A stretch of 64,000 nt of DNA from Branchiostoma lanceolatum (Eukaryota; Chordata; Leptocardii; Amphioxiformes; Branchiostomatidae): positions 14,739,242-14,803,241 of the forward strand of contig NC_089730.1 of NCBI RefSeq assembly GCF_035083965.1, given 5' to 3'. Under the pieces are notes generated by a model. It searched no databases. It was not told the origin of the DNA and saw nothing but the letters and a program-made list of their open reading frames with translations. Numbering within the stretch: position 1 is the stretch's first letter; each line of letters opens with the position of its first letter. Shown piece after piece: positions 1,930-63,798 of the stretch. Both the position numbers and the translations under genes were made by a program.

Positions 1930-2171
1930 CTGATGTCATCATGAGTACGATGTATTCAATGTAAGATTGTATGATAATGTTGTATATTTTAAAAACCCAA
2001 CGTGTATATTCGTATGTGGAAGCATGTGTCCAAGCACGTTTTCTATTGTTTTAACGTGTAATTGAGAATAAGACTTGTTTTAATTGTGGCGGTGTACTGT
2101 GTAAAACAAACCACAATTCAGCCTCTGGCTGCGAGAATTTGTTGACGATAAAAACCATTTGATTGATTGAT
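1930..2171 (+). mobile_element. 3' tail of a CR1/L2-type LINE
   Basis: The segment ends in GAATTTGTTGACGATAAAAA followed by a short ATTGATTG repeat, the usual 3' end of CR1/L2-like LINEs. No reverse-transcriptase coding part is present, so it is a 5'-truncated copy. The left boundary is approximate. Confidence 0.5.
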
Positions 2172-10336: not shown

Positions 10337-11375
10337 AACCGACATTCCCACACTTATTCGTCCTATTTGATGTTTCGTCGAGCTACTTGATTAGACGACT
10401 AGCCATGTGAAACACGGACCATTTGTACCAGAACGTTCCTTTGTGACTGTTATCTTATACAACATAGCCGTTCTATTATACAAAGCATGTGCTCCAACAC
10501 CATGATACCGTGTCCAGCTAAATCTGTTGCAGAACATTGCAATTTGCAAACTCAGGCTCTGTAACTGCAAATATGTGACCGGCTTACAAGAACCCAATCT
10601 CTGCTAAGGATAGTTTAAGTGGCCTCTTGTGTTAATGGCCAAGAATATGGGATGTTTCAGAACCATTCTGGTAATAGCTATTACGTGCAATGACCGCAGC
10701 GGATTTGCCGGTAGACTTCTTCTGACAGTAATGTGGTTAATATTGTACTGAGATGTATGAGGCACCGAGAGGAATGTGTCAGTCAAGAAAGTCATCGGTT
10801 TAACTCTCACATTTTTCAACCACAAGGAAATGTACCAGGCGTGATGCGTTTTCGGTAAAACGAGAAACGATTAATCAGAAGGTGACTTGAGTTATAGACC
10901 TTAAGCTTGTGCTTGAAGACGTACTAAGTATTGCCCTCATCTATCAGACTTGCTGTGATGAATAGATAGACCATAGATAAGGGTAAGGGTCTACGGTATG
11001 CACGTCACGCATCACACGAACCATCCATCTTTGTGAACTGTGCAACATTTAGAAAGGAAAAGGAAAAGAACAAACAAGAAATAGTCATAGGAAATTGGAG
11101 TTTTCTTTTTACACAACCAGTAATGTCTGACCTGCTGACGTGTCGGTGTCTCTCAGACACTATCCTTAAGCTAGAGCTTCTGACTGGAGTGCTGCTTCTC
11201 GCCGCTATAAGTAGCCGAAGTATATATGTTGCGCGGTGCGAGAACACTGGTTGTGTAAAAAGAAAACTCCAATGTCATATTTTCTACCAACCTGATGAGA
11301 TTATTTTCGGAAGATATTCATGCCTTCAAGAACCAGAGTTATCAACCCAAAATTCAGATGTTCAAACTTTTTCCC
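10337..11375. other. Intergenic, no gene recognised
   Basis: Contains a pair of short related words around 11095-11115 and 11255-11275 (TGTGTAAAAAGAAAACTCC and a reversed form), suggesting the arms of an unclassified inverted-repeat element of about 180 bp. Otherwise nothing. Confidence 0.35.
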
Positions 11376-12310: not shown

Positions 12311-13080
12311 TTAATTGTTCTTGTAGCAAAAAATACAGCCTTGAGCTGCTAACCTTATTCTTCGTAATTTCAAAGACTCGGTGGGGGCTTACACTTGTTA
12401 TGATGTTAGTACGTCCAAGGGCACTTACAACACTTAGAGGGCTCGGCGAATTGCAAACCTAGCAGAAACAGCAGACAGACTGGCACCTTTGGCCCACTAT
12501 TTAAACCTCGTGCCTGAGAGGTCACGAGACCTAAATGAAATGTAATTTTGCCAGCGGAAATCCATAGAGTAAGCCAGAAAAATATCTGGAGAATCATAGA
12601 TTATTGGTGCGTTGAAATTAACTTCAATATAGATACTTTAGAGCAGTATTCACAACGACAAATGCAGGTAACGAAGGGACGTAGCGTTTGCAATTTTTCA
12701 GTGGTTCTAATGACCTGCATATTTACAACTACCAGATAACTAAGAGGCACTTACGGTTCCAAATCACTCTCCCCTGGAACACTGGTAATTACACAACTGA
12801 TAAGATACGTGGTGACTCCACTATCAATCAGGAGGATACCTAAGCACTTCGTCCCTTGTTTTGGCACATAGGTTATCGTTAAAGCCAGCCTGAAGCGGGG
12901 CCACGGTGCTATATGATCGGCAGTCCTGGCCACACAGCCAGCCAGACGGAATTCTGATGCAGACCCGAGATCACTCTTCCCGAAGAAAACATCCGATACT
13001 TCAAGGATACAGGTACGTGTACCATCTACCGTTAGAAGATCTAGGATCGGTATGTATGGGAATATAATTAGAAAAATATA
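12311..13080. other. Intergenic, nothing recognised
   Basis: No exon, RNA gene or repeat copy recognised. Confidence 0.4.
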
Positions 13081-13458
13081 TTGTGTTTCCGGTTATGGTC
13101 CCTAAAAAGCAGGGTCGGTAGGTAAGGATTTTCCTTTTTATTCTTCTCTTTTTTAAATTACATTTCGGCCGAAGAGATCCAAGAAATACATTTTCGCAAT
13201 GTAAAATAGATATGCATTGTACAAGCAAAAATATAGCAATCAAATGAACAAAGAATTAGAACGTTTACTACACATTATTACATCAACTGTTCAAATCCCT
13301 TATCCGTTAGCAGAATCTGAAATACACCACACGATGTTTTGAATATTTATCACTCAGATGTAAAATTGAAAATTTTATGTCCCTTAGCAGCGGTCGACCC
13401 CAAAAGGCTAGGGTCGGGAGGTTTTTGTTTGGATCAGTCGAGTAACCGGAAACACAAC
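13081..13458. mobile_element. MITE-like element, TTGTGTTTCCGGTTA ends, copy 2
   Basis: Starts TTGTGTTTCCGGTTATGG and ends GTAACCGGAAACACAA, matching the element at 871-1213 in ends and in internal words (GGGTCGGTAGGTAAGGATT, ACACATTATTACATCA). The copies have diverged, so the insertions are not recent. Confidence 0.75.
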
Positions 13459-14109
13459 ATATTTGTGCACATGCTTTGAATCCCCGGCCCTAAAGTATTC
13501 TCATCAGACAGAGATAAGATTAAATACAAGAATCTACCAGAAGCTAGCTCATGTACGTGATTGAAGATCATAATGTACAATTCACATGCGCTCAAGGAGA
13601 CCCAATAAACTTAACCTTAATTAACCAGAGAATTGACGACCTTCGTGGTTACAACGTTATTCATCTTAAGAGCACACGTTTTGCTGATATCCAAGAGAGT
13701 TTTCACATCCGGATTAAAATTTCTAAATCATCCCTTTTGTCATGAACAATCGGCTCCCAAAAATAAACTGTTGCCCTTAATAAGGGTAACACGATGCATC
13801 ACGCAACATAAGTACCTTTAAATGTACTGATTAAAAAGGACCTACGCCTCCACTTGCTATTGAAACAAACTGGAATACCCAAGTGAATAGAAATGACCGG
13901 TGTTAAAGATATTGTCATAATTGCATTTGCACAAACGTTGACTACATGAAATACGACTCTAATCAGTGTACGGCCTTTAATTAGGGACCATTAAGGCTGA
14001 GTATCATTACTATCGTGAGTATTGCTAACTGAAGTTGATGAAGACATCAAACTGGTCGAAACTGTTTTTTCTAGTCTGAACATATCTAGAAATTAATTGA
14101 ATGTTGTAC
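13459..14109. other. Intergenic; degenerate hammerhead-like motif at 14034-14063
   Basis: The only structured word is TTGATGAAGAC...GGTCGAAA near 14034, a decayed relative of the motifs at 9042 and 5168: its first core base is T instead of C. No exon recognised. Confidence 0.35.
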
Positions 14110-16838: not shown

Positions 16839-17336
16839 ATTGATCATTCCAAGATCGTCGGAAAATCTTGGCGGTTGGAAGACCTTGGTCCTGGATATCC
16901 TTGAAAGACTTTACAAAAATCATTAAAAGATCGTAGGAAGACATTAGAGATCATTGAAAGATTACTTAAAGATCACTGAAGGATTAATATCATTGCAATA
17001 TCACTGAAAGATCATTGAAATGTCACTGACGGTTTACTGAAAGATCATGAAATATCATGAAAGGATAACTGAAAGATGATGAAAAAGATCACAGAAGATA
17101 ACCAAAAGATCACTAATAGATCATTAAAAGATCACTGAAAGATTATCAAAAGATCACTGAAGGATCACGGAAAGATCATTGAAAGATCACCGAGAGATCA
17201 TAAAACGAAATACAATTTTCAAAGAGAGAACATTGCCTTGGAGAACATTGAAATGTCATCGAAATACCTTACTGATCACTGAAAGATCTTTGAAATACCT
17301 TAAAGATCATTGAAAGCGAACCGAGAGATTATGGGA
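16839..17336 (+). repeat. Minisatellite of an 11-bp unit, consensus AAAGATCAYTG
   Basis: About 500 bp in which AAAGATCACTG, AAAGATCATTG and close variants recur at multiples of about 11 bp, with many GATC words. The array is best kept between 17090 and 17200 and decays at both sides. It starts about 145 bp upstream of the third tRNA. No ORF. Confidence 0.85.
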
Positions 17337-19174: not shown

Positions 19175-22100
19175 ATGTTACTGGCAACCTTTCTGAGCTT
19201 CGCTCTTTGTATTGTACTGTGTACGTGTCAACACCTAACAGTGTACAACACATCCCTGGACGACAGCAACAGAATATGGCTCCACTGGCAGGTAGACTAC
19301 GAAGCATCGACGGTGATATTTCAGCTTAGTGTAGATACAATTGGGAACGGCTTCGCGTTCGGTATGTCCGATGACGGGACATTAAGGAAGGCGGATCTTG
19401 TGGTGTTCTGGACCGAGGGAAACTCAGTCAATGCTGTGGTTTGTATTCATATCTCGTTGCAATCATTATCCTTTAAGGCACATTTATACACACAAGATAA
19501 CAGGTACTCAAGCAAGTGGATAAAATTTGGAAACTGTCGGACGTTTCAGACAGCATCCGATGCCTTTTGTCTGTGACCAAACGAGACGAAAGACAGCGGA
19601 TGCTGTCTGAAACGTCCGACCGTTTCCAACTTTAATCCAGATGCTTGAGTAGCTAGAACCTTGCGTATCTTATTACCTAAATGTCTAACCTTCGTCGATG
19701 TCACAGTTATATACCTTTTTGATTTAGTCGTGCGATCTTTTTATCCTACGATATTCAGCGTGACCATTGTAGAATCGATCTTCGACAATTAAGGATCTAC
19801 AACCTTCAACGGCAAAAGACAGCTGAATTGTACAACAAAACCACCACTGTCCGAAGGATGTACCCAATATGCAGTTGTAAAACTGTTGTATATACAGTAT
19901 ATACAGTAGTCTTAGTCTCGGACGTTTATCATTGGAGAAGCAAATGATTTCTTAGAAGTTGAGATAAAACTTGAGAAATAACGCGTAATCTGCGGGTGTT
20001 TTTTTTTGTTCATTCGGTGTTTCTTCTCCATAGGACTCGTGGACAGACAGCCAGGGACATTTTCGCACTGACAATAGCCAGGACTATCATCTTATTAACT
20101 ACACGGTCAACAATAGGAAAGTCAGCGTCACATTCAGTCGCCGATTCGACACCTGCGACGAACGGGACTATCTGATTGATGTAAGTTCTAAAGTGTTGAT
20201 TGTTCATGCAAACATTTCCAATGTTTGAAAAATGGACACTTCTAAAAGCTTGTCTCGTTGAAAAATTGGTCCTTTCCTTGGTGCTGAACATACACTCATA
20301 ACGATTACTTGCAACTACAGACATGTTCATCTCCAAACTAAAGAAGGGATAAGTCAAAGTATCCCAGTGGCTTCAGAGGTTTTCTCTTTGAGTGTTTCCT
20401 TTAGAAATTGGTCCTTTCCTTGGTGCTGAACAGACACCCTACCGATTTGTTGTAACTACATACAAGTGTTATATCAAGACTAGAGAAGAAATCTGTTTTA
20501 AGAAATAAGATTTTTTCTCGGAGTGTTTCCTTCACATATAGATCCTTTCCTTGGTGCTGAACAGGCACTAGAAAAGTAAATTCTATCGGCTTTGTAAAAC
20601 ATTATTAACATTTGCGACATGGTCCTTCTTTTGTCTGCTTAAAGTACGAGCTTTGTTTTTCTAAACTATTGTTGACAGTCAGGAACGACCAACCTGTTGT
20701 ATATTCTACCGGAATACGACATCACCGCTGTGTCCGATCTGAATAATGTCGGCATGCGCATGCGCTTTGGAGCCAAACGACAGCAGCTGTTGAAGACCGA
20801 TATGTCCATTCCTCCTTTTCCACCGGATGTGAGATCATTTGACGTCCGGGTGAACCAGGTACCACCAAAGACTTTAGCCTAGAACTATGTTTTTGTAATT
20901 TTGTAATGTTTGATTGCGTTCAAATGTTGAATCCTGTATCTATGGTGTTTTGGTTTAATTTTATCTCATAGTATTGACTGTCATAGTTGTGTTTTCTACT
21001 GTTCTTTAGGCAAGAATCCCACCAGAAGAAACGACATACTGGTGCAAAACACAGCCACTTCCGACACTCCCTGCCAAGGTTCATGTACTTCAGGTAAATT
21101 TTCAGATTTCTCTCCTTTTTTCAGGTGAAGATGACGGTTGTAACCTTTTCTACAGCAACCCCATTATGTGACAGCACTATTTGGTTGCTGCCTATATATT
21201 AGGAATGACTGAAATGTGAAGTCAATTGCAAATTTCCGATGTCATTCAAATATTACAGTACGAGCCCATCATTACTCCTGGGAACGAGGAGACAGTGCAT
21301 CACATGACCGTATTCCTGTGTGGGAACGACTTGAGTAGTACCGCGGGTTACGACGGACCATGTGAGGGGGAGGAGGAACGGACGGAACTCAAGACCTGCA
21401 AACACGTGATCGCTGCGTGGGCCATGGGTGCACAGGTTAGTTAACACGTCATCGCTATGTGGGCCATGGATGCACAGGTTCATAACATGTCATCGCTGTT
21501 TGGGCCATGGGTGCACAGATACATGTATGTCTTTAGTCCGCAGTCTTCGATACGTGGGTACAGGATGCATTTCAACATTTGCAAACAAGAAGAAAAAAGA
21601 AAGTGCCGTCCGACTTCACTTTTGTCCCTCATAGGTAAGTGCAAGGCAATGCAATAATTCCAATATAATGTGCCTTAAAATATCAATTTCCTTTGTCTCC
21701 TGAATTAGGCATTCGCCTACCCCGAGGAAGCGGGAATACCTCTGGGCGGTCCGGGTGCTTCTACGTTTGCTATGATAGAAATCCACTACAACAACCCACA
21801 GCGGCGGAATGGTAAGGTTACTGAAGAATATTGCTATCTTATTTCGCAGTCCCTGAAACATTTTCTACAGCTTTTGAACAACATATTACCGGCCAACGAA
21901 CCAGATTTTAACAAGTTATTGTTGAAAATTGGTGGTACAGTAACAGTCAAATAGACATGATCCTTTAGCCCAGCCATACTCCAAAATCCTACGAACCCAG
22001 CGATGAAAAAGTTTGATGAAAAATGGCGGACGCGCCAAGGTGCAGTCATGTGCAACCACACTTATGTTGGATAAACTTCTATTTTTGATGGGCGGTCGGA

Positions 22101-25100
22101 ATCGATCTATCAACTCTCGTGAGATGACACTTTTATATTATTATTCCACAGATATTGTCGACAGTTCGGGCGTCAGATTCCACTACACACCGACGCTGCG
22201 ACGTCACGACGCAGGTATCATGGAGCTGGGCTTACGTTACTTGCCGTCCATGGCGATACCGCCACGTCAGGACGGTTACGTCATCACAGGGTACTGTCCC
22301 GCAAAGTGCACATCTAAGGTCAGGACAATCAACTATCGTGTTTTTGTACCACCGTGCAGTAGGTTCACCTCCTACAGAGGTATTGCGGTTGATTGTGTCC
22401 GTGTGTTCGCAGTTATAACTCAATTGCAAGATGCCTCTGATGCGTTTGTAAGTATTGCCATATCGTCTTCTACATACAGTATGGGCGAGATGATGCCCGT
22501 TGATTTGGGGCAAGGTAGCAGAATTTCTAGGCAATATAATGATACAGAACGACACCCCCGTCTTGAAGTTGTGGTACAGCCCACAGCTGGCGCTACCTAG
22601 TCTCCAAGCAAATGTTAGGCTCCGGCTTATTACACTGCCTTCACAGGTTGAATACTGCATAGTGTTACAATAAACCACTACCTGGGAAATAAATGGAAAA
22701 GGGTTTCAAGAAAATTGTTATTCCTGGTTAAGAGGGTATCAAACACCTTTGCCCACAGCGCACACACCATAATTACTTCACGGAGGTTTGCATCCTACGG
22801 ACTCTTGTTTCCTTTAAGGATAGTTACGTGCTCCTAATCCCGGTTGATTACTGCCCGATTAAGGTACCGCGAAGGTCACACCAACCAATCATAACATCTT
22901 GTCTTTTATTACACTGGCTACGTGTCCTCAATCCTAATTACTTTGATTTTGGCTACAGCCTGCACATGAACGTGTTATGTATGTGCTCTCGAAAATACAA
23001 ATGGAGTTCGTATGCCATGAGCCATCTACAAGAATAAGTAGAAGACGTATACTATACGTCTTCTACTTATTCTTGTAGATGGCCCATGGCATATACGGTC
23101 TATGACAGAGACACAATACAAGTAAAATTACATGCAGATTGTACGAAGGGGGCCAAAAAGTAATACAAGTGATTTTAGGTGCTAAATTTCAACTCATTGG
23201 ATAAAAAATGAACTTGTTATAAAATTACTTGCTTTATTTTTGACTCCCCCTCGTATTGTACATGTATTTGGCCGATCTCGCCTCACACGGGCATGACGAC
23301 GGAGTCATAATTTCTCTTTCATTCACCAATGTATTAATTAATTCATTAATTCATTTGTTCATTCATTCATTCATCCACTAATGCTGAGGTCCTGTTTTCA
23401 CACTGTCTTTCACACAGGGCCTCCCCGCAGGTGGCATTCAGGTGTTCGCCTCGCAGCTGCACACGCACCTGGCAGGGACAGCTGTGTGGACCAAGCACGT
23501 GAGAGGCGGAGTGGAACTGCCCGAGCTGAACAGAGACAACCACTACAGCACCATGTTTGAGGTGAAGTGCCTGTACTGAGAGAGAGAGGCAGACAGAGAG
23601 AGGGAGACGGAGAGAGAGGGGGGAGAGAGAGATAGAGGGAGAGCGAGAGAGATGGACAGAGAATGGAAGGGATAGAGAAAGGAGAGACAGACGGAGACAA
23701 AAAGCAGGAGAGAGACAGACAGACAGACAGACAGAAGAGAGCATACGATAGAGAGAGAAGAAGAGACAGGCAGACAGTGAGAATAGAATGAAATGAACAC
23801 CAGTTCTGAAACTAGTTGTGTGTAATCTATACATAATATAGCTATGGTGTCGATAGGTTTCGTATGCGATGTGTTCCTACTCTGACTTTCTTCTTCTTGT
23901 GAAGTATCTGGTTTTATCAATATCCTACAGTATACATGATGACTTACGTTGCTTCCCTGGCCCACATGTATGGACTAGAGCTCACACAAAGTCATTACCC
24001 TGTCCCCTCACGGGGCGAGAGAACGCGCGTGTCCTGAATCCCCCTGTGAAAAACAGCTCCAGCAATCGATCAAACATCGCTGGGATAAGACGAATGGATG
24101 GTTGTTTATGGAATTGGCGCGTGTCCGGAGCTGACTTTGCTGCATGCTTCATTATTGTGCAGTTTTTAAATCGGTCGCACGTTGGCGCATTATGTAGGAC
24201 AGTTTTATATCCCCATTCCAGTAGGGTCAGGGTAGCGACCTCGATGCGTCCGAGCGATTTGACAGAGCGCTAAAACTATTTCATACATTCTAAAAAGTAC
24301 GCTTTGTGCGTTTATTGTCTTTTCAGTCATACTTTTACACTTTGCATTACATTCCAATCATGAAGTCAAGGGCTACATAAATCCAATTGAGGTCGCAGCG
24401 CTGTCAAGTTGAATGGAAACCTTTAAAATGTTGTATTCTGTAATTACAGGGGATACGGCCATTACGAAGAAAGGTAACCGTACTACCGGTAAGCAAACCA
24501 CTTTTGTACGAAAGATTCTCCTACGTTGTTTGTCGTTGGCGTAGCCATGGCGTTGCAATCAAAGGCCCTTTGTGCTCTCTTTACAAGATTTCAGACGAAA
24601 CTCTAGATGAACCTATATCTATTTGCGTGCACACACGTCTGTATACCATTAGAACTAATGTACTTGCAGCCACCATGCGGTGCTAACCAGAATCGACCCA
24701 TCCTGCTCCAAGGCTTTTTGCTGGTACAGTAGTTGCAAGCAATCACTTTCCGACAACATGGTCTTGTATCTACAAAATTATTTCCCGCCATGCATAATTC
24801 GAATTACATCCATCACCATGATACACTTGATAAAATATACAAATGTTGCTTACTACTTCCAGCATGTGATTTTTGCCTAATTTTCCCTAGCACCTTCTCA
24901 TTTCATGCTATCGTCAGTATTCGTCACTGTATGGTACGATTCGGGGACAACATGTATGAATAGTAGAAAAAATGATTTTTCAAATGATTATTCATGACAT
25001 TTAATGACATTTAAAGGGCGATGTCCTGATGACCAGCTGTAAATACAACACCGCAAGTCGTCGCAGCGTTACTCTAGTAAGGACTTCATATAACGACTTT

Positions 25101-31825: not shown

Positions 31826-32170
31826 CACAGGAGTTTGGCCATTGGGTTGCAATGACCAGGCGCAGTCAGGGAGGGGGAGATGTTGATTTAACCTTCCCGC
31901 GGACTGACGCCTCTCGCTGCTTATTTTCCCCCTTTTTGCCGAATTCTAGGATCCATACCCCCGTATGATATACTCTCTAAGCAGAGGAATGAGTCCGACT
32001 GGTGTTTGACGTGTTTTAGCCGTTTTTGTTGGTATGGGTTGGCGATATAAAGAAAATGGGACAAAATAGAAAGCCCGACAAAAATGCCTAAAAACACGTC
32101 AAAAACCAGCCGTACCCATTCCTCTGCTAGAGAGAGTATATAGAATTAAAGGCCTGGTGGTGGCTCATGC
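31826..32170 (+). repeat. Interspersed repeat (GCCGAATTCTA family) interrupted by a MITE
   Basis: GAGTTTGGCCA near the left, TTTTTGCCGAATTCTAGGAT, CCATACCCCCGTATG and, after the insertion, AAAGGCCTGGTGGTGG match 43612-43790 in the same order. The 43.7 kb copy lacks the 170 bp insertion. Confidence 0.7.
31969..32140. mobile_element. Palindromic MITE, TATACTCTCT ends
   Basis: The two arms of about 65-70 bp are inverted copies with few mismatches: TATACTCTCTAAGCAGAGGA at the left against TCCTCTGCTAGAGAGAGTATA (given in two parts: TCCTCTGC and AGAGAGTATA) at the right, continuing through GTGTTTGACGTGTTTT and its complement. The centre is AT-rich. TA at both borders fits a TA target duplication, as in Tc1/mariner-type elements. 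Confidence 0.85.
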
Positions 32171-36090: not shown

Positions 36091-36554
36091 ACGTGATAGG
36101 TTAAGGGTAAAGGATTTCTTCAATTCCGTCAATTATAAACCTCATACTTACGCAAGCAAACCAACTTGTTGCAAACGTGTCTGAACTTGCAGAATTGGAA
36201 AAGACTTCGTTGCCAACAGAATATAGTTGGTGTTTGTTTGCATTAAGCGAACGTGACGTAAGTGGCCTACACACTACGAGAGTCACCATCACAGAGGTAG
36301 GTAGAAACATCACTATAGTTTCCGTAAGAGGTGCTCTAAGAAATAATTGCTGGAACGTATACAATGCTTACTGAAAACGTCGAGGAAGATACATAGTTTT
36401 CAGCTAGTCTTTGCAGCAGCAAATAGTACAGGGGAACACTCTAGCTGTACCTTGGTGGACATATCGTCATTATTTAGTATTCAGTGGTTTCATGGGCGTG
36501 TTCATGGGCGTGTTGAGGAGTGTGGTTCACATTGTATAGTAGTCCATAAGCCAA

Positions 36555-36642
36555 ATGACAGCTACTCAAGCAACTGGATAAAATACAGAAACGGCCAACC
36601 GAACGTTTCTAACTTCATCCAGTTGCTTGTGTAACTGTCATT
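36555..36642. mobile_element. Short palindromic MITE (ACTCAAGCAACTGGATAAA family)
   Basis: ATGACAGCTACTCAAGCAAC and TGGATAAAA at the left pair with CATCCAGTTGCTTGTGTAAC and TGTCAT at the right. Shorter relative of 19497-19705; the outer word CTTATTACCTGGAT follows, as in the other copies. Confidence 0.75.
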
Positions 36643-37547
36643 TGTCTTATTACCTGGATCAAATAGTCATCATGATTGTGCAAAGCAAAAATATACCTGC
36701 AAGTTCTATTTCAAGAATTCAGCACGTGTCATGCAGTGGGTGTATATCAGCTGTAAGAAAAGTAGTTATTGACCACAAATGGTAACTTAAGTCTTAAGGC
36801 TCCCATAACAGGCTTTTAAAAGATGAAACTACATGAAAATCTATCTCTGTTATGTGTTTATAATCTGAGTGTGTATTTAGCACCCATTACACACGTAAGT
36901 TCAGGATCTATCCTGAACTAGACTGTAGATTGTTCTTTCTTAAGTTTCTTTACAAATGCAATGTTGTGATCAAAGGTATACACTAAGAAGCTCTATTTTA
37001 AGACATTAGCAGTTGTGACCTTTGACAACTGCTAACATCTGCTGAAATACGAAAAACTGCATGAAAACTCTCATTGTTTAGTATAGATAATTCAATATAC
37101 GTACTTGCTAACCGATAGACACATTTCAGTTGAGGAGCTATATATGACTAGATTCTTTGGTTCTTTGATATGCCTTTTCAAATTTCGTCAATCGTACCAT
37201 ATTGTGATGACAATACTGATCCGTTATTCAAGGATAATGGATAAGATAATAGTGATAAAATGTGCGCTTCCTCGTAAAGATGAGAATATTTTTGTTATAT
37301 TTTCGGAAGCCTTGTGATGCGTCAGTCAGTCATTCAACATTAAGGAGTTACTCACATACTCCTTCGTCGCCTCTGATCTTTTATGAACAACATAAAACGT
37401 TCATTGAGACACACAACAGACTAGTGCACCCCAACATTGTGTCTTAACAACTGTGTTGCACATTTTGTAACATTTTCAGTTAAACTAACCTTGAGCATGA
37501 ACTTCCGAGCACCTCAAAAGGCTGCTCGAAAACCCTACTCGTTTTGT
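36643..37547. other. Intergenic, nothing recognised
   Basis: Contains small inverted word pairs (GTTCAGGATC/GATCCTGAAC near 36900; AGCAGTTGTGACCTTTG near 37010) but no gene. Confidence 0.4.
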
Positions 37548-44800: not shown

Positions 44801-47800
44801 CAGCTACTTTCCTTCCACAGACTGAACAAAAACATAACTGTTCATCTACCTTCCCTTCGTGTAACCATTTTGAAATAGGTGCTTTGCATTGTACGTTTGC
44901 AGTTAACCTAAGGTATGAGGATTATAAACTAACTAGGATGGTATCCAGGCTAGCTTTCGGTTGCATTTTAAGCATTTCTATGGATCCTAACGTACCACCA
45001 ATGTTTGAATGTCCCTTGTTTCATCATTTCTATTTTGCAACACTGGAAATGCCGTGGTCGGTCTGCTGCCCTAGGAGAACCCAGTCTTGTTAGCGTTGAT
45101 ATATTGTGTTGCAGGGTTTGCTGCATAAAAAGAGACCGCCCGTTTAAGAGTAACCAAGATATATTGAGTCGACCAGCCTTATACAAAGAGCCAAGAGCTC
45201 CTGACTAAGCCGTTATTTCAACAAATATCCACCCATTAGTACGGCATAGAAGCTGGGCGTAATCTGTTTTCGTCTCTTTAGCGCTTCCATTAGGCTTGTG
45301 CAATGCCCATTACACTTGACGTGCGCCTTGTTTAGCGTTGATGAATCGCACAGGCTATGAACCTAAGTCCTACTTTAGGCTCACCGGAATGGCAGGTGAT
45401 TAAGAGTAAATCAAGAGGATTACATGCTTTAAACGGGGTGGTCTACAGCACCTATTGGAGTAAGTCATGGCGTTTGGTTGAGCTGTATCAACAGGGGGGC
45501 TGCAGTTTGAGGTAATGACGGACATGTTCTATTCGCAAGGGCAACGGGAAAAAGTTAGATAAATAAACGGAAGTATAAATAGAAACTTTAGTACCATTTA
45601 GCTTTTTACTTTACACTTATGGCTATGGGGACCAATATGGCCCATGTACAAACAAGACATACAAGAAAGCAAGTCAAGTGTTCCCTATGTGAAGGAACTT
45701 GTAGAAGTGGTGTGACTTAAAACTTTCAGGTAAAAAGACATTCGCACGTAAATTCGTCGATGTAAAATAAAAATCTGTGTTATGCAACTTGGTTGGTGTA
45801 CACAATAACTAGTGCTGGACACGCTCCCAAAATATTTTCATAATTACCTTCGCCAGGAAGGTTATGCTCTGCGGGTTGGCTTTCAAATAAAGTGATAAAA
45901 CTTCAGCTCCCTTGCATTTTTCTTCCAAATTGCAGATTCCTTTTAAACTGTAGATCATAGATGATATACGCTTTATTACTTTTAAAGTAGAGCATTTTCA
46001 AATTAACATGTGCACTATGTGTTTAGGTAACCAGAGAGGTATGAGTCCAGCCCAGGTCCAGACTATCGTGGACGCCCACAACAGGTACAGATCGTACGTC
46101 TACCCTTCCGCCGCCAACATGAAGAAAATGGTAAGTCTACGGTTGCTGTTAGTCATTAGAACACGGCCATGGACATCCAAATCGTGAACCCCGATGGTTT
46201 GACCGTGGTATTAGAAAGGCAATACTGTAATTCACTTTATCTTTAAGGTAGCAAAATTTCACGGTGTAAGGAAAATGGACATTCACGGTGGTGGCAAGTG
46301 ATTTACAGAACGGATGTGTGAAGGAATCATAAATAATAACAGCAACTTCTTTCACGGTGATGATAAGTTCACGGTACAGAGGTGACCGTGAAAGCAGTGG
46401 ACATAAAGTTACAATAAAAGAAACAAGAATTACAAAATATGAGAAACCGTACAATCCCACCTCAACAGGAAAGGAGGCATACGTGTCAAACTGCCTGACA
46501 CTTGGAACCATAGCCTACCACCGCCGCGATCCAACATTACTCCTGTACTCAAACAACAGGAGCTAATCAACTCATCCACATTAACTTTGTCTTGACTATG
46601 TTCAAGTTTTCGCTTTATTTGCATATGAAATTCATAGTTTTTGCTTAAAACTTGGTGGTCTAGAAATCTCGTCCAGTCACTGACGAAAAGTAGCGGATGC
46701 TACCTGAAACGTTTGACTGTTCCCAGAATCTACCCAGTTGCTTGAGTAACTGTTTTCTTGCGTACCTTATTGATTGGATGTCTAACAGTCATCGATGTAG
46801 AAAAGTAACGGTTACAAGTGGGGGTTTTGTCGGTTGTATAATGCTCCTGGCAAAAGATACGGAATATCCCACGTAATGCTAGGGTCACATTTCCAAGCCG
46901 GGGCCCGGCCGGGTTGTTTGCGAAAACGAAAAATAAAAAGTGCATATCAAGAAAATATATAATTTATGGTCAGGAGTCATTTTTCACTTCTTGTGTCTTT
47001 CTTTTGTCTTTTATATCATATTTCGTTCCCGCAAGCTGCCCGACCGGGCCCCGCTTTGGAAATGTGACCTAGGCATAAGACAGATACCCGATTAAGCATC
47101 ATTTTATGATAGAACATGGCACGATACGGGGTTTTAAAATACTATGGTGATCTGGTAACCCAAAAATTCAGACGAGCTAGACAATATATAATCATATAAT
47201 TTTTTAGAATAGTAAGATAGAGCCGAGCTGTTTCCTGGCTGTATTATGGGCCATGTAGGACTGAGCTACCTGCAGTTAACTGACCTCCGCATGAGGGCGT
47301 GACAAAGAATTAAAGCTATAGTGCGTCAAAGATATATCGTGTTTTCCAAGACTACATCTTGTACCATTTTGCCCCAATTTTCACTCTCTATTCAAATATC
47401 ATTTTGCATCTTCATCATAGTTTCTTTTGTCCAATATGGTATTTTGAGATATATCGAAATTCCTGTGCGAATATAGCATTCTACAAACTACGGGGGATAG
47501 GACTAAATGGCACATGTGCGCAGCTAAAAATCACAGATGTGGAACGGGTTTTCTGCGAGGTTCTGTTAGAGCGACGAGTATGTAAACAAACCAGTCTGGG
47601 ATGTCGTTCAACATGTGTTATCTCAGGAAATTACAGCAACAGAAATGCACGTATCGCATTGGCACCGCGTTGCGCGCCGTTCTTACTTTGCTTTTTGCGA
47701 CATTATTCTCTAAACCTATTCAATGTTTATGTCGTTGTTAGTAGACCGTATTCTGAAGTGAAATAACGAAAATGTCGTCAATGCCTCTTTTGCAAGGAAT

Positions 47801-57560: not shown

Positions 57561-58124
57561 TCAAAATTGGTCAATGAGCAAAGACAAGTGATACAGAAAC
57601 AGTAGTAGTAAGCAAAGTGACGAGATTGTCATTACGTACTTGAAACAAACGGCCTGAAAACTCTCCTCGTCAAAAGTCTCGTGTGAGTCTCCGCTCTCTA
57701 CGTCTGAGCGACTTCGTTTGATCATCTTCCTCCACTCAGAGGCAATCGCCTTGATTTGGTTGTCGAATTCGGTGTCCAGGACAAGCACGGAGCGCCCCCC
57801 GGCAGTTGTTAGCTGTTTTTCACCTGTCCTGTCTAACACTTTACTGGAGAGGTATCTCATTCGAACCTTCTCGCAAATCCCGCAGTGCTCTAATTCTTGG
57901 AACACGCGAAGTCTTTTGTTACCGTCCAAGCACCACATCTTCCTGTTAATTCTCACCACCTCGATGAGCGGCACTCGTTTGATGTCCACCTCTTCGTATA
58001 GGATCTGTCGGAAGAGTTCGGATAACTTCGTGCCGTTGTGGAATTCTCCCCCTATCGACTGTTGGGTGTACAGCACCCGGGAGGGGCGAATGGCGATCAC
58101 CCGCTCCGGCGTCCTGTTTGTCAT
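57561..58124 (-). CDS. Small ParB/sulfiredoxin-fold-like protein, 187 aa
   Basis: Minus-strand frame from an ATG that directly follows an acceptor-like TGTCACAG. It begins MTNRTPERVIAIRPSRVLYT, has LSELFRQILYEEVDI, PLIEVVRINRKMWCLDGNKR and LRVFQELEHCGICEKVRMRY, then LDRTGEKQLTTAGG and a charged tail. IRPSRV...F...PLIEV...CLDGNKRLRVF follows the ParB-like nuclease / sulfiredoxin fold: a strand, the DGN(K/R)RL loop at the place of ParB GERR or sulfiredoxin GCHR, then a helix. The chemistry is not known; without the sulfiredoxin GCHR cysteine it is unlikely to be a sulfiredoxin. The frame ends in a hydrophobic stretch (MTISSLCLLLLFLYH) that is either a C-terminal membrane anchor or read-through past a donor (GTACGT starting at 57639). 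A 5' UTR exon candidate is at 59938-60085. Confidence 0.65.
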   Translation of the reverse strand: MTNRTPERVIAIRPSRVLYTQQSIGGEFHNGTKLSELFRQILYEEVDIKRVPLIEVVRINRKMWCLDGNKRLRVFQELEHCGICEKVRMRYLSSKVLDRTGEKQLTTAGGRSVLVLDTEFDNQIKAIASEWRKMIKRSRSDVESGDSHETFDEESFQAVCFKYVMTISSLCLLLLFLYHLSLLIDQF

Positions 58125-59937
58125 CTGTGACACCCGCTAGTGACAATGGTAGAGTCCAACCAGTCAATCATTGTAGAAACAAGTTTTGAAAAGAATCCAC
58201 GTACTCCAAGTTCATGCAGCTACTTGACGACAAGTCTGAAGAACTCTTGGCCTTACACTCCCGTCGTCCTATGAAAACAAAGAAGCGCATGAAACCTATA
58301 GAAAGTCCTCTTGTGCTGCATATGTAATACGTATATGAGCAAGTGTTTAAGTGGCCTAATGTGCATGAAGAGGAGTTATTCTACCGTTTGTTTAACAAAC
58401 AGCACATGTCATTGGAAAATCGTTAGACTAACAAGTTGTAAAACGTATTGTCAACTTTTAAAATAACCTTTCTTTTGTAACAAGACAAAAACATTATGAC
58501 AACATACACACTTTTAGTTAAGTTGACCTTGTTATCGTATGCACCATGCATTAGAGTGCTGTGTACGTTGTGCATTTAAATTATTCATGGTTTAAATGTG
58601 TTTCTTATGCTTACAATGGGTAATCAGGCCAATACATTGCGCATACATTGTCATAGTTAGGACGTAACTAGGGCACATTAATACGACGAAGCAAACTGCT
58701 TCAAGCACCTGATTTTTTTTCCTAAAGCAACTTAAATTGTTTTCAACATTCTACACCTCACCGGGAGAATACAATTCTTCAATCACTTTCACCTAGTGTG
58801 AAACAAGACACAAACACGAACAGATCATTCAATAAAAGACAAATTCATCAAACCGTCACAAGGATTGCTTGTATCTAGTTCTTGATTTAAAGCGGCCCCA
58901 AAGTTGACACAGACTCCTATTGTTGTGTCAGCTTGTTTTTATCTTTACATTCTTGACCTTTGTACGGTGACTTTTGGTACATGAGCGAACACGATCGATC
59001 GTGAACAACGTCCTTACGAAAATGATGCCCTTCGCATTCCCCCTTTTCAAGCCAACAGAATGCGAAGTTAACGCAACATTTGGTGCTCATTCGAGTCACT
59101 TGACGTCCGTCGACTTGTGGGAAAAATAATCGACCGTGGGACCGGTAAAAAGGCTGTAACATTGTTGTGTTGTCCAGCGGCTGTTACAAACACGTGGACA
59201 GTTCTGAACCCATGGGGTTCTATCTAAAATCCCATGCATTGAAAGCAAATGCAGGCTATCAAGTAGAAAATCTGTTAATCTGCTGATAATACGGTTGCTT
59301 CGTTTGTAATATGCCATTGTCTACCTGTTACTGAGGGTGTTATCAAAACATTTTTAGTGCCAAAAAGTCCAATCAGTCTATTTTTGATTAAACCTCCTTG
59401 GTCTATAAACATAACGTTATCATTCTAGCTAGCCCACGATGGTACGCCACTCCCTCAAAATCAAGCTTGTGTACACAGAAAATTGACAATCCATCCGTAA
59501 AGACCGTTATCTAAAACGATATGTAAACAACTGTAGCTAGGTGCGTCCGCGAGTGCACGCGTCAATTCACGTGCCGTACAGGTTGCACTAAATCGCTTAG
59601 AGTTAGACAGAAATACAAACTACTAGAACTAGTAGAAGAATGTGACGTTACACTTAAGGTTAGGGAATATCTATATATTACATAAAAATGTAAGAATGTA
59701 GATAAGTGCTACACAGACAGTAAATGTTCAATCTATTACCCCCCCTCCCTCTCTACCTGTCCATAGACTTTGCACCTGTCTAACACTACATATCTTAACA
59801 CACAGAAGTTACCGGTCTTCAGAAGACTCTTAGACTTTACACTGCCTTACCTCTGTAACCGTGGAAATAGAAAGTTCTTGAAAATATCTGTTGGCGATTT
59901 TAGGTTAAACAGGTGAAATTACGTAAACGGGACTTAC
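58125..59937. other. Intron or 5' flank of the ParB-like gene
   Basis: A minus-strand frame at 58917-59162 has a run of Cys and His (CCVNFAFC, GECEGHHF) slightly like a CCCH finger, but its spacing does not fit and it is not called. Nothing else recognised. Confidence 0.35.
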
Positions 59938-60085
59938 ATCGGCTACGTGCGAGGGGTCACCAGGGTTCACAGACTAGGATCCGGAAAGGGCGGGAGAGCA
60001 AATAGCGGTGAAGCGTTATCACTGAACAAGCACTGCTTGGAGCTTTAACGTTCTTAGGCCGGCCATGTTGTGTCGATTGTATGGA
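59938..60085 (-). promoter_or_regulatory. Candidate promoter and 5' UTR exon of the ParB-like gene
   Basis: Minus strand: GC-richer block with a GGGCGGG-type box near 59988 (as read on the plus strand) and a strong donor GCCGAT/GTAAGT ending at 59938. It contains a short upstream frame ATGGCCGGCCTAAG (15 codons, stop near 60019). The next minus-strand acceptor seen is the one just before the ATG at 58124. Confidence 0.4.
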
Positions 60086-60395
60086 CGACATCCTCTGGGA
60101 ACACCAAAACTGATACGAGAGAGCGAAAAAAAGGTAAAAATTGGGTAAAAAAAGTTGCCTTCATTTTATTATGAAATCTAAGTGGCCAGGAAGGTTAAGC
60201 AAATGACTGAACACACAGAGTATGGTATACTAAACAATAGATATCTTAATTTCTGGTCTTTTTATGTTTATTTATCTTTGACTTTGGCATTCTATGACAT
60301 TAGCGTTCGCTATTTTGGGCAATATATGCCATACATTTGCTCATTTTATAGCTGCTTTGTACGATTTACAGTATGGTCAGAAGCTTTTGCTTGAA

Positions 60396-60467
60396 GCTAT
60401 TGACAGGATGATCCTGTCAGCAGTGCAATTCTTTTCTATTGCTGACAGGATCATCCTGTCAATAGCC
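60396..60467. repeat. Palindromic satellite, array A (single hairpin)
   Basis: A perfect inverted repeat: GCTATTGACAGGATGATCC, TGTCAGCA at the left and TGCTGACAGGATCATCCTG, TCAATAGC at the right, with an 18 bp loop. GACAGGATGATCCTGTC is also a palindrome in itself, so each arm can fold on its own. Confidence 0.9.
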
Positions 60468-60937
60468 ACCTCCAAAACTTGTTTCCAAACAAAATTAATG
60501 GGCACCCGAATGCCATCCATTTAATCGAATCAACATTGGCTTATCTCTGTTTTGAAATGGATCTAAATGCCACAACTTGAACATTTTATGTTGACACATT
60601 TGCCAGAATTGTGCCACGGTGATTTATGTTAATTTCTTTTGTTCTCGTTCAACATTAAGGGGACTCCGTGTGGAAAGATGATATCCATTTACATCATGAA
60701 ATTAATCAATATTAGGCTATTTTCTGTATTCTTTTCCCGGCATAGTTTGTATGTAACAAAAAACAGAATTGTGGACTTTCCCACGAAAACTTTCCTACTC
60801 CGATCCAAAAGTACATAACACTATTTGGGAATATGTTGAAAGTAACCCTTTTGATAGTTTTTACCCTGACCAATGATCATTGCCAGTGTTTTAAGAAGTG
60901 TTCGAAAAAAACAGCAAAAGTTAAACTAAAGCCTAAG
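60468..60937. other. Spacer between palindromic arrays A and B
   Basis: AT-rich; no exon or repeat recognised. Confidence 0.4.
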
Positions 60938-61245
60938 GCTATTGGCAGGACGATCCTGTCAGCAGTACAAAAATTTGCACTGCTGGCAGGACGATCCTGT
61001 CAGCAGTACAAAAATTTGCACTGCTGGCAGGACGATCCTGTCAGCAGTACAAAAAATTTGCACTGCTGACAGGACGATCCTGCCAGGAGTACAAAAATTT
61101 GTACTGCTGACAGGATCGTCCTGCCAGCAGTACAAAAATTTGCACTGCTGGCAGAACGATCCTGTCAGCAGTACAAAAATTTCTACTGCTGGCAGGACGA
61201 TCCTTTCAGTAGTGCAAAAATTTGTACTGCTGACAGGATCGTTCT
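60938..61245. repeat. Palindromic satellite, array B (41-bp unit)
   Basis: About seven units of AGGACGATCCTGTCAGCAGT, ACAAAAATTTGCACTGCTGGC. The first three are nearly identical at a period of 41-42 bp; later ones vary or are inverted. AGCAGTACAAAAATTTGCACTGCT and the GGATCG/CGATCC words make every unit self-complementary. The array opens with GGCTATTGGCAGG, like array A. The open frames over it are artefacts. Confidence 0.92.
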
Positions 61246-61249
61246 TTTT

Positions 61250-61365
61250 TTCAATGCATTTTCGCAACCAATCAGAAGCTAGCATATGTAATTGCTACGG
61301 TAACAGCAGATATTAGGTGTTTCAAGATGTCGGCCATCATCACAGCGTATCTAAGGACCTACCAG
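61250..61365 (+). promoter_or_regulatory. CCAAT-type promoter and possible short first coding exon
   Basis: CGCAACCAATCAGAAGC (Y-box) is followed at 61327 by ATGTCGGCCATCATCACAG, 13 codons ending CTACCAG at a GTGATT donor. The start context AAGATGTCG is fair. No continuing exon was found, so the gene is unproven. Confidence 0.25.
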
Positions 61366-61848
61366 GTGATTACAGCGCGATCTGATCGGATCCGGCGAAC
61401 GCATGAGCTGGAAACCGGGCAATTTTAATTTCATAACTTCAGCTAGGCTTAACCTATTCATGGGGCATATTTCGGATCGTGATTATAGTCATGTTTTATC
61501 TCAAATGTCATCGATGCTAGGTGCCAAATTTCTGACATGCTCCAGTACTGATACTCCCATCCGAGCCCTCTATTAATTGAGCTGAACTACTAGTTAACGT
61601 ACAACGTACAAGTAACAGCCGTTTCGTTATCACAACTGACTCTTTTTCATGCTGAAATGTTTGAATCCGTCGAAACGCACTTTTAATAGAAGGAAGCCAC
61701 CCGCCTCCCACTGGATCCTAATGCCAATTCTTCAATAAATCCCATGACTTCACCAGACAGGTGTGGTTGTGCTCTATTATTACGAGTCATTTCTAGTTTA
61801 CTGCTGTACATATATCCGGTACATAGAGGTATAATAGCAGGCAGACAC
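61366..61848. other. Stretch between the two candidate first exons
   Basis: No further exon recognised; contains open frames without support. Confidence 0.35.
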
Positions 61849-61942
61849 GCTGCACAAAATTGGCCTCTTGGTACTCATTCAGGGCGGCCTGGAAATCCGC
61901 CCAGTTGGAAAACTTATCTCCAGCCTTCATGGCTGCCGCCAT
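61849..61942 (-). CDS. First coding exon resembling a ZSWIM3/FAR1-like protein N-terminus (partial)
   Basis: Minus strand: ATGGCGGCAGCC opens MAAAMKAGDKFSNWADF, then QAALNEYQEANFVQ, 31 codons, with a weak donor (CAGC/GTGTCT). The pattern (K)xGDxFxxWxxFxxxLxxYQxxNxVQ is that of the start of FAR1-like N-terminal domains in ZSWIM3-type and transposase-derived animal proteins, where a W(K/R)RDSRT segment would follow in exon 2. No exon 2 was seen to the left. Upstream on this strand CAGCCAATCAGAGCTCGC is a Y-box promoter element. The exon lies between palindromic arrays B and C. Confidence 0.45.
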
Positions 61943-62004
61943 GTTCCTCGCTGAGTCCTTTTGCGCGGGCAATCTTTTTGCGAGCTCTGATTGGCTGAAA
62001 CTTT

Positions 62005-62225
62005 TTCCTGTCAGCAGTAGAAAGTTTTGCACTGCTGACAGGAAAAATCCTGTCAGCAGTAGAAATGTTTGCACTGCAGACAGGATGATCCTGTCAGCAG
62101 TAGAAATTTTTACACTGCAGACAGGATCATCCTGACAGCAGTGCAGATTTTTCCGCTGCTGTCAGGATCATCCTGTCTGCAGTGCAAAAATTTCTACTGC
62201 TGACAGGATCATCCTGACAGTAGCC
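62005..62225. repeat. Palindromic satellite, array C
   Basis: Five or six units of TCCTGTCAGCAGTAGAAA...TTGCACTGCTGACAGGA with GACAGGATGATCCTGTC or AGGATCATCCTGTC joints. Near 62135-62185 the orientation inverts (CAGCAGTGCAG...CCGCTGCTG), making a larger palindrome. The array closes with ATCATCCTGACAGTAGCC, the complement of the opening GGCTATTGACAG. Confidence 0.92.
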
Positions 62226-62587
62226 ACAACCTAAACTAAATTAAAATCGGTTGCAGGGTGTCTTGTGGTCGCATGGTGGCAGTGAATGTCGTAAAACCAC
62301 ACTATCATTCAATATCCTCTGAATTTCGGCCACAGATCACAGAAAAGGATCTCTTTAAACACGTTTTCTTATATGCCAAAGATGAAATATGTAATAAGTA
62401 TCAGCGTTTCGGCTTGATTTGCCAGAAAACTTTCAGAGGTGTCCTGAGTTAGCCGGTTTACGGCAGTTTGGCTGCAGACGACAGTAACCTTGCATGTGTG
62501 GCTGATATAGATTTGTGTCCAGAAATCTTGTTCGTAAATCGTCCTTTAGAGCTATATTAGCTACTTATCTGCACTACAGAAGTCATC
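62226..62587. other. Upstream region of the C11orf98 homologue
   Basis: No TATA box at a fitting distance; the transcription start must lie in the last 100 bp or so before 62588. Two short ORFs here are not supported. Confidence 0.4.
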
Positions 62588-63798
62588 ATGGCACCAGGAA
62601 GCAAGATAAATCGGCCGAAAATCGTGAGTACGCAGAGAACATCACAAAACAGCACGCACATACACGCGGCACGTGTGTACATGTTCACATGGCGTGGGGA
62701 GGGGGGCGGCTGTACTGACGTTGTGATCGATAATAAGATTTTTCTTATGATTGAGCATGACAAGGCTTAATTTTTCAATAAATAACTTGTATACGTACAC
62801 AATTGTTGTGTATGTGCTATCAAGTTAGCTATTTCCATCAGGATGGCCCTGTCAATAGACAGTAGAAATATTTGTACTGTTGACAGGATGATCTTGTCAG
62901 CAGTAGAAAAAGTTGCACTGTTGACAGGATCATCTTGTCAATAGCCTCAGGCTATTGCGAAATTACGTTTGATCTTATCTCATAAATTTTAGCAATAATA
63001 TCTAACATTACTTGTAATTTATAACGTTAGCACTGACCTTTTTTCATATTGATACGTCGAACCGCAGGAAAAACTGAAGAACCCACGAAAGTTCAAGAGA
63101 CAGATGAAGGCCCAGAGGAAGAGACAGTTCGAGAGACAGTCCGGAATAAAGATGGCTGATGTACAGGACAAGGAGATCATGCCAGCATCACATTTACTCA
63201 AGAGAAGGTAAATATGTTAACCGTCTCCCTGTTGCCTAAATCTGTAACTGATAGAGAGTGGGGTACCAAATGGCTACTTCAGTGTGTTAATGGTGTGTTT
63301 TACCACATAAACAGCAAGCTTATGCTGTGATACTTTGCAATCAACCTTCTATTCTAACTAAGTGCTTGCTTTTATCATAAATAGTGTTACTGTAAATGTT
63401 GAAATGTTCATGGTGGTTTTACTGTCACTGTTTTTACATGGCCTTCCCACCACAAATGATACTTCAAATCAAATGTGTATTTCTGTGTGTCACTACATAC
63501 ACGGTAGTATAATGGCAAATTTAAAACACCATGAAAACTTTATTTCCCGTTGTACTGTAAGATTATGTCCCGCAAAAATAAATGAATTTACAGTATTATA
63601 GGGTGTTGAGGGCTTGCACTTGATCTCCATGCTATGCTGAGTTACCTGTTAAAATTTCCTTGATTTCAAGACTTCATATCCTTTTTTGATATGCTAATAG
63701 AACATGTCCCAAAGCCAACATCACGCTGTCTGGGAAGAAGAAGAGGAAGATTCTCAAACAGCTCCGGAGATCGCAGAAGGAGAAAGAGGAGATGGAAT
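62588..63798 (+). CDS. C11orf98: C11orf98 homologue, first three exons (3' end not in window or not seen)
   Basis: Exons 62588-62623 (MAPGSKINRPKI), 63068-63207 (EKLKNPRKFKRQMKAQRKRQ onward, to ASHLLKR) and 63701-63798 (TCPKANITLSGKKKRKILK onward, to KEKEEME). Phases fit: exon 1 ends in phase 0, exon 2 leaves AG which with A makes Arg. Recalled human C11orf98 has the same signatures in the same order: GGKINRPR at the start, a basic middle, a HHLKKR-like word, then ANITLSGKKRRKLLQQ and QKEKTAME. Donor ATGGAAT/GTGAGT closes exon 3, so at least one more exon should follow. The protein is small and extremely basic, which suggests nucleolar or RNA-associated location, but its function is unknown. 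Intron 1 contains palindromic array D. Confidence 0.85.
62838..62958. repeat. Palindromic satellite, array D (intron 1 of C11orf98 homologue)
   Basis: ATGGCCCTGTCAATAGACAG, GTACTGTTGACAGGATGATC, TTGTCAGCAGTAGAAAAAG and TTGACAGGATCATCTTGTCA, closing with AATAGCCTCAGGCTATT, a further palindrome. The most diverged of the four arrays. Confidence 0.85.
63208..63700. other. Intron 2 of the C11orf98 homologue
   Basis: AT-rich; nothing recognised besides the splice sites at both ends. Confidence 0.5.

Follow-up and report, generated by a model that had tools for sequence, protein, structure and literature searches.

Arrays of a self-complementary 41-bp repeat near gene starts in Branchiostoma lanceolatum and their possible origin from foldback-type insertions

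Tm1 Mutator/Foldback elements of root-knot nematodes are described as having target duplications of 9 bp, outermost 7-bp motifs that differ between the two ends, and inverted arms with a variable number of 13-15 bp tandem repeats; 45 of the 53 complete copies carry 8-10 bp duplications, and MITE-like short forms, one gene-containing form (enclosing Cg-1) and a transposase-bearing copy are known (PMC3169594). For the Mutator superfamily, a target-site duplication of 8-11 bp is given in a survey that reports limited evidence for chordate Mutator elements and did not confirm the one reported for Branchiostoma floridae (PMC6446971). Tetris and Galileo of Drosophila have internal tandem repeats in inverted arms; repeat number differs between the arms of a Galileo copy, the repeats are proposed to be extra transposase sites, and those of Tetris seed satellite arrays (PMC4079207, PMC3573991). 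MITE-like arrays of two alternating palindromes, (M1-M2)n-M1, are described in pithoviruses (PMC10664404). Bacterial BIMEs contain regularly spaced REP palindromes in alternating orientation and are proposed to be non-autonomous (PMC2817692), and tandem minisatellites named mirages are found in lancelet genes (PMC3087553, PMC3902484).

We analyzed a 64-kb stretch of B. lanceolatum DNA, here called the window, in which an initial annotation had located four repeat arrays, A-D. Their location was confirmed (Table 1), and so was their composition, a GACAGGATNATCCTGTC palindrome (labeled P) alternating with an AGCAGT...ACTGCT palindrome (labeled Q) at a period of 41 bp. With up to three mismatches, GACAGGATNATCCTGTC had 15 matches, every one in the array region, compared to 0.22 expected and at most two in 100 shuffles. 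TRF reported period 41 with 7.2 copies in B, 5.2 in C and 2.0 in D. A profile built from 13 units found nothing convincing in the rest of the 64-kb window (best outside match E = 2.4). Counted as P palindromes, the arrays have sizes of 2, 3, 5, and 8; D is decayed as annotated, but B and C, thought to hold about six units each, hold eight (the last partial) and five plus a half. Self-folding of each unit, as annotated, is an approximation: the arms of single palindromes are imperfect, with 7-9 of 10 bases matching in most units and fewer in several.

Judged by analogy, the plan of A-D is that of Mutator/Foldback elements such as Tm1, with which they share a probable duplication size, unlike end motifs, repeat-bearing inverted arms, MITE-like short forms and a putative gene-enclosing form. 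The Tm1 repeats, however, are shorter and in that account not described as palindromes, whereas this locus has a palindromic 41-bp unit, three copies and one clean duplication. The annotation was right that this is not an ordinary MITE plan, though it is close to the known Foldback plan; A does resemble a MITE in size (85 bp) and ends, but its candidate duplication is only 6/9. Tetris and Galileo, as described, differ by units of about 210-220 bp, long arms and several copies with target duplications, and Galileo is placed in the P superfamily. The pithovirus palindromes, similar by description, measure about 140 bp, have putative TA duplications and occur in a virus of amoebae (PMC10664404). 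BIMEs are bacterial, with RAYT tyrosine transposases as proposed movers (PMC2817692), and no relation is implied. Mirages are described as duplicating an intron-exon boundary (PMC3087553, PMC3902484), whereas A-D are palindromic with fixed ends; identity with a mirage minisatellite was rejected because, on reading the sequence, no exon edge is visible in the units. Searches by blastn of phage records, and with one exact pattern each in genome_contigs and viral_contigs, found no copies, as expected for collections of prokaryotes and viruses. A literature search by topic and by words of the unit, with subscription journals mostly outside it and no repeat database included, found no description of the repeat, which does not prove that it is unpublished.

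Table 1. Coordinates of the arrays, proposed elements and neighboring features in the window.
Feature	Position	Strand	Description
Array A	60395-60467		
Array B	60937-about 61245		
Array C	62006-62225		
Array D	about 62827-62946		
Element A	60389..60473	.	Class-1 outer end GCTTGA, AGCTATTG, 2 P around a 17-nt loop, CAATAGCC, class-2 end ACCTCC; 27-bp perfect stem
A, candidate target duplication	left 60380..60388; right 60474-60482	.	GAAGCTTTT (left), AAAACTTGT (right); 6/9
TAAACTAAA, left copy	60922..60930	+	Proposed B-C target-site duplication
B-C left arm (array B)	60931..61245	.	GCCTAA, GGCTATTG, 8 P (last partial) alternating with 7 Q
Proposed B-C middle	61246..62005	.	Two CCAAT-type boxes near the edges; ZSWIM3_N-like open frame
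Open frame MAAAMKAGDKFSNWADFQAALNEYQEANFVQRVC...	61796..61942	-	Weak ZSWIM3_N match; possible first exon
B-C right arm (array C)	62006..62231	.	Half P, 5 P, 5 Q, CAGTAGCC, class-2 outer end ACAACC
TAAACTAAA, right copy	62232..62240	+	Proposed B-C target-site duplication
Element D, reversed and decayed	62820..62952	.	Left end TCAAGT or CAAGTT, AGCTATTT, 3 P (first decayed), 2 Q, CAATAGCC
D, right outer end	within 62820..62952		TCAGGC (GCCTGA on the other strand), class 1
DUF5564-matching gene	exon 1 62588-62623; intron 1 62624-63067	+	Exon edges placed by eye; D in intron 1
Proposed family			36-bp end GCYTRARGCTATTGRCAGGAYGATCCTGTCAGCAGT; also GGNNGTGGCTATTG...

With respect to the ends, A is the only array in which both are well formed (AGCTATTG...CAATAGCC). 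B has the opening end GGCTATTGGCAGG and no closing end, C the closing end CAGTAGCC and no opening end, and D a decayed opening AGCTATTTCCATCAGG and the closing CAATAGCC. The annotation that every array opens and closes with complementary ends thus applies to A, and to D in decayed form, but not to B and C, which both stop within a P palindrome, either right at CTGACAGGA or a few bases past it. Of the six 6-mers that directly flank the RGCTATTG ends on the outside, five can be assigned to one of two classes, GCYTRA (class 1) and GGNNGT (class 2); the sixth, at the decayed left end of D, is a good fit to neither and poor for class 2. If B and C are joined as the arms of a single element and D is read in reverse, every element has one end of each class. 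In this post hoc framing, the identity sum of the two classes was 23 (22 with the other D anchor), with a null P of 2e-5 (2e-4) in 50,000 draws; in an earlier run P was 6e-5, or 0.0011 when only the better class was considered, and restriction to A and B-C gave P = 0.0073. The outermost base is G in all five well-preserved ends, and all six end palindromes have a central G when read from the end inward. These results support bounded elements with shared ends, as annotated; instead of the four elements assumed, three are better supported, B and C being arms of one.

B-C is flanked by a perfect 9-bp direct repeat, TAAACTAAA, with the same 6-base offset outside the left end of B and the right end of C, which is the boundary given by the end classes. 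A 9-mer at equal offsets (0-12) was obtained in 67 of 200,000 random pairs and with a chance of 0.0015 when flanks were dinucleotide-shuffled. TAAACTAAA is AT-rich, and a shared word of at least 9 bp anywhere in 30-bp flanks has a chance of 0.034 with shuffled flanks; the window contains two further copies of the word, at 49542 and at 31705 (minus strand). The flanks of A agree at 6/9 positions (chance of at least 6/9, 0.012 per comparison, with nine offset pairs examined) and are a candidate for a decayed duplication or a chance likeness. For D no convincing duplication was found; the longest word shared by its flanks has 5 bp, which chance gives with a probability of 0.28. The annotation had proposed to look for target duplications; set against the 8-11 bp of Mutator elements, B-C has 9/9, A 6/9 and D none, and the duplication size is probably 9 bp.

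Altogether, ten end pairings were tried for shared flank words. No target duplication was found for B or for C taken singly (the longest exact words within about 24 bp of the ends are 2 and 5 bp, and in 30-bp flanks the shared words reach 4 and 5 bp), and a single element spanning A to D was rejected because its shared flank word never exceeded 4 bp. The left flank of A and the right flank of B gave another 9-bp word, TCAGAAGCT, at unequal offsets (9 and 21); its B-side copy overlaps a CCAAT-type box, and the word was not used.

In our best reading, to which we give an even chance, A, B-C and the reversed D are three insertions of one non-autonomous foldback-type DNA transposon family whose arms then grew in place. 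Long inverted arms with tandem repeats, as in foldback elements, are found in B and C if B-C is one element. Shared ends, two end classes (five of six ends), unit arrays, variants private to one arm, flipped units and a single 9-bp duplication are observed; mobility, superfamily, transposase binding and the route of growth are inferred. Against this reading, the 27-bp stem of A is perfect while its duplication is only 6/9, although a clean one would be expected in a young copy; D has no duplicated flanks and a left end that fits class 2 poorly; and the unit profile detected no convincing copy in the remaining 61 kb.

We consider it unlikely, though far from negligible, that the arrays are instead a local palindromic minisatellite, whose 41-bp self-complementary unit arose once, was spread within 2.5 kb by repair primed from hairpins, by inversion and by conversion, and was never a transposon. 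All copies found lie within 2.56 kb of the 64 kb, a placement with a chance of 0.0047 for three independent random insertions, although local hopping or a preference for gene starts would also give clustering. The lack of clean target duplications at A and D and the orientation flips of units likewise favor this explanation, and several lancelet genes are described with minisatellite-like duplications and, in one gene cluster, an inverted-repeat-rich haplotype (PMC3087553, PMC2632668). Against it stand the shared ends of fixed polarity with their two outer 6-mer classes, and a 9-bp repeat at the boundary that ends and classes set. If correct, the locus would be no more than a good illustration of how palindromes drive the growth of repeats close to gene starts.

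The B-C middle bears on another alternative, that B and C are separate truncated mobile-element insertions flanking a host promoter and that TAAACTAAA is due to chance; this appears rather improbable to us. The middle contains two boxes near its edges, presumably CCAAT boxes, and the minus-strand open frame, whose weak match to ZSWIM3_N covers positions 1-27 of 102 and stays below the Pfam cut-off (E = 0.012; second scan, E = 0.18). The greater difference of units between the arrays than within them also fits separate insertions. However, each array lacks its inner end, the outer ends are of class 1 and class 2, and the 9-bp repeat lies at equal offset on both sides. Because the middle holds a possible host first exon, B-C as a single element requires sequence capture. 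The two CCAAT-type boxes align over 20 bp with a score of 23, reached by 6 of 300 shuffles, and were taken to be a pair of ordinary CCAAT boxes; an inverted duplication of two promoters was rejected, as the self-complementarity of the whole middle was reached by 139 of 200 shuffles.

According to the reading as three foldback-type insertions, each element would have a class-1 end (GCYTRA, then RGCTATTG) and a class-2 end (GGNNGT, then GGCTATTG; poor in D), followed inward by an inverted terminal block containing the CTGACAGGATGATCCTGTCAG palindrome. A transposase encoded elsewhere would act on these ends. By analogy with what is proposed for Galileo and Tetris, the role of the palindrome would be that of a dimeric transposase site, present in the arms as tandem copies. 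No transposase domain was found in 59 of the 73 listed open frames, nor, for the middle of B-C, in three minus frames and, of the plus frames, one 33-aa peptide; the MULE transposase of an autonomous Mutator copy was thus absent from the frames scanned. This argues against an autonomous copy at the locus, not against mobilization in trans. The further-reaching proposal of a Mutator/Foldback-type family in a chordate, with arms of self-complementary units growing in place by copying and flipping and with B-C enclosing a candidate promoter and first exon, is tentative and on balance doubtful. If true, the family would bear, as structural evidence, on the disputed presence of Mutator elements in lancelets.

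Growth by internal amplification of units, as annotated, is supported by the alikeness of half-units, which is 0.860 within B, 0.831 within C and 0.823 between the two arrays (P = 0.007 by permutation, with B contributing most). A column table revealed variants in B that are absent from C and others in C that are absent from B. Inversion of some units is evident from orientation variants: B contains two reversed units, one at 61107 and a partial one at 61230, and in C the types of halves 8 and 9 are exchanged relative to their orientation. An array-wide mirror gave P = 0.18 for C and P = 0.39 for B in the same test, and is therefore not claimed. After insertion, the 41-bp unit would multiply in the arms through slippage or unequal exchange, and units may now and then be flipped by template switching or by inversion mediated by hairpins. 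A real family, with its arrays of 2, 3, 5, and 8 palindromes, would present the stepwise change of a transposon end into a minisatellite within a single stretch of 2.5 kb, where the orientation variants keep a record of unit inversion.

Two functional explanations, compatible with either origin, were considered. The arrays might be a source of miRNA- or siRNA-like hairpin RNA, which we regard as very improbable. They fold strongly compared to shuffles (z of -12.4 for A and -5.8 for D as DNA, -25.6 for B and -17.8 for C as RNA), and D is intronic as annotated, lying in a gene with a Pfam DUF5564 match (E = 2.5e-16), which we take to be the C11orf98 family. However, none of the 81 Rfam matches listed for 60000-63500 (E up to 1), a search that included miRNA precursor families, reaches its gathering score. 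Moreover, none of 10,000 shuffled orders gave as low a likeness between adjacent half-units of B, the would-be hairpin partners, so B shows no sign of maintained unit hairpins; the suggested cruciform or hairpin-RNA role thus found no support. Equally hard to credit is that the arrays are homotypic clusters of transcription-factor sites under selection, based on TGACAG/CTGTCA, which presumably resembles a TALE-homeodomain half site. Only 7 of the 16 palindrome arms of B contain an exact half site, indicating that half sites were not kept. The arrays do lie near gene starts, and the four of them (722 bp) contain 22 half sites compared to 54 in 61,300 bp elsewhere, an enrichment expected of any repeat containing the word.

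Arrays A to D (see table) consist of a 21-bp palindrome P (CTGACAGGATNATCCTGTCAG) alternating with a 20-bp palindrome Q (CAGTACAAAAATTTGTACTG), which gives a period of 41 bp. In the whole window, the P core was matched 15 times with up to 3 mismatches (0.22 expected), always inside the region of the arrays. A profile from 13 units gave no convincing match beyond them in the 64 kb (best outside E=2.4), and phage, prokaryote and viral collections yielded no match to the repeat. Whole arrays fold strongly, array A into a perfect 27-bp stem with a 17-nt loop. Either role would be compatible with any of the origins discussed below, yet it is unlikely that the arrays serve as clusters of transcription-factor sites, as exact half sites are left in only 7 of 16 arms in B, and equally unlikely that they are a source of hairpin RNA, for which Rfam gave no match at its threshold.

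Arrays, flanking features and other repeats of the window
Feature	Position	Strand	Motif or remark
Array A	60395-60467		outer 6-mers GCTTGA (left, class 1), GGAGGT (right, class 2)
Array B	60937-about 61245		outer 6-mer GCCTAA (left, class 1)
Array C	62006-62225		outer 6-mer GGTTGT (right, class 2)
Array D	about 62827-62946		outer 6-mer GCCTGA (right, class 1)
9-bp repeat flanking B-C	60922-60930 and 62232-62240		TAAACTAAA, just outside end-class boundary
CCAAT-type box	61265-61284	+	CAACCAATCAGAAGCTAGCA
CCAAT-type box	61979-61997	-	CAGCCAATCAGAGCTCGCA
Intron 1	62624-63067		edges by eye
191-aa open frame	57564-58136	-	
Hairpin	19505-19651		68-bp arms, TACTCAAGCAA-TGGAT
Hairpin	36546-36650		34-bp arms, TACTCAAGCAA-TGGAT
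Inverted-repeat elements	866-1219 and 13074-13464		matching ends AAATATRTTGTGTTTCCGGTTA
Further inverted repeats	11087-11280, 23011-23093, 31980-32128, 46883-47069, 1825-2362		31-41 bp arms
Tandem array	16915-17205		AGATCATTGAAAGATCACTGAA, periods 11, 22 and 33 bp

The arrays match the plan of known foldback elements. For Tm1 of root-knot nematodes, target duplications of 9 bp and 7-bp outermost motifs that differ between the two ends are described, along with short tandem repeats of variable number in its inverted arms, one copy enclosing a nematode gene (PMC3169594). For Galileo, repeat numbers unequal between the arms of one copy are reported (PMC3573991), and both in Galileo and in Tetris the repeats of the arms have been proposed to act as additional transposase sites (PMC3573991, PMC4079207). 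Because of this common plan, we give about even chances to the reading that A, B-C (arrays B and C as arms of a single element) and D arose by insertion of non-autonomous foldback-type elements, whose end palindrome would have multiplied within the arms, hairpin-mediated flips contributing to arm growth. In the present arrays, the repeated unit is self-complementary and 41 bp long.

The initial annotation had each array bounded by an opening and a closing end. Shared ends were confirmed, RGCTATTGRCAGGAYGATCCTGTCAGC being common to the arrays and the first palindrome keeping one polarity at each of the six ends, but B has no closing and C no opening end. The outer 6-mers lie immediately beyond these shared ends. 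On the assumption that B-C is a single element and D is reversed, each element carries a class 1 end (outer 6-mer GCYTRA) and a class 2 end (GGNNGT), with D-left (TCAAGT or CAAGTT, depending on the anchor) fitting the classes poorly. An equally good split in three random pairs has a chance of 2e-5 to 2e-4, flattering values from a test framed after looking; the chances for the better class alone (0.0011) and for A and B-C only (0.0073) were likewise framed post hoc. Separate insertions of B and C would require no captured exon, but they account neither for the 9-bp repeat TAAACTAAA nor for the fact that the two arrays lack complementary ends, and we hold this reading only tentatively.

With respect to candidate target duplications, a common 9-mer at equal offsets of 0-12 occurred in 67 of 200,000 real pairs (0.0015 with shuffled flanks), and any common word of at least 9 bp in shuffled 30-bp flanks has a chance of 0.034. 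Among ten end pairings inspected, one besides B-C also had a common 9-bp word, at unequal offsets. The flanks of A (GAAGCTTTT/AAAACTTGT) are 6/9 alike, with a chance of 0.012 per comparison and nine offset pairs examined, and those of D revealed no convincing duplication. The absence of clean duplications at A and D, together with the tight clustering (chance 0.0047 for three random insertions within 2.56 kb of 64 kb), favours a purely local palindromic minisatellite, a possibility we hold only tentatively.

Division of B, C and D at the palindrome centres yielded half-units of two alternating types (e.g., ATCCTGTCAG-CAGTACAAAA and GTCCTGCCAG-CAGTGCAAAT in B), only four of them from the decayed D. 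In B, same-orientation halves, two steps apart, were 18.2/20 alike, and adjacent halves, which would pair in the unit hairpin, 15.9/20, below all 10,000 shuffles. C showed the same direction more weakly, with 15.9 for adjacent halves (P=0.039) versus 17.0 two steps apart (difference P=0.076). Since same-orientation halves are more alike than adjacent ones, copying proceeds by the tandem 41-bp unit, and palindromy at unit level looks inherited, not maintained. B contains an inverted unit at 61107 and an inverted partial one at 61230, and in C halves 8 and 9 bear each other's type. With P values of 0.18 (C) and 0.39 (B) in the array-wide mirror test, we claim flips of units; a second-order palindrome is not proven. 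Each of B and C has private variants absent from the other. Mean identity was higher inside the arrays (0.860 for B, 0.831 for C) than between them (0.823; permutation P=0.007, a signal mainly from B), and the variant pattern fits independent in-place growth of each array.

No transposase was found in 59 of the 73 listed window frames of at least 90 aa, the other 14 lying outside the scan (eight in GA-rich tracts around 10 kb and 23.5 kb, six in 60746-62161), nor in three minus frames of the B-C middle (61246-62005); from its plus frames one 33-aa peptide was scanned, without match. With a clean duplication in one of three elements and no transposase, membership of the putative foldback elements in Mutator is therefore not established. 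For chordates, a survey notes limited evidence of Mutator elements and failed to confirm one reported from B. floridae (PMC6446971).

The gene that has array D in its intron 1 matches Pfam DUF5564 (E=2.5e-16), which we take to be the C11orf98 family. A minus-strand open frame in the B-C middle shows weak likeness to the start of ZSWIM3_N (E=0.012 in a 49-aa frame, below the curated cut-off; E=0.18 in a longer frame). Two CCAAT-type boxes, one close to the inner edge of B and one to that of C, both point into the middle. The 191-aa frame matched nothing significantly in Pfam and nothing in PDB up to E=5; its fold looks ParB-type to us, and a gene starting in the B-C middle could have it as a later exon.

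Elsewhere in the window, the two hairpins with a common motif are probably another MITE family, and the two inverted-repeat elements with matching ends probably a third. The further inverted repeats show no obvious kinship among them, and a tandem array is also present.
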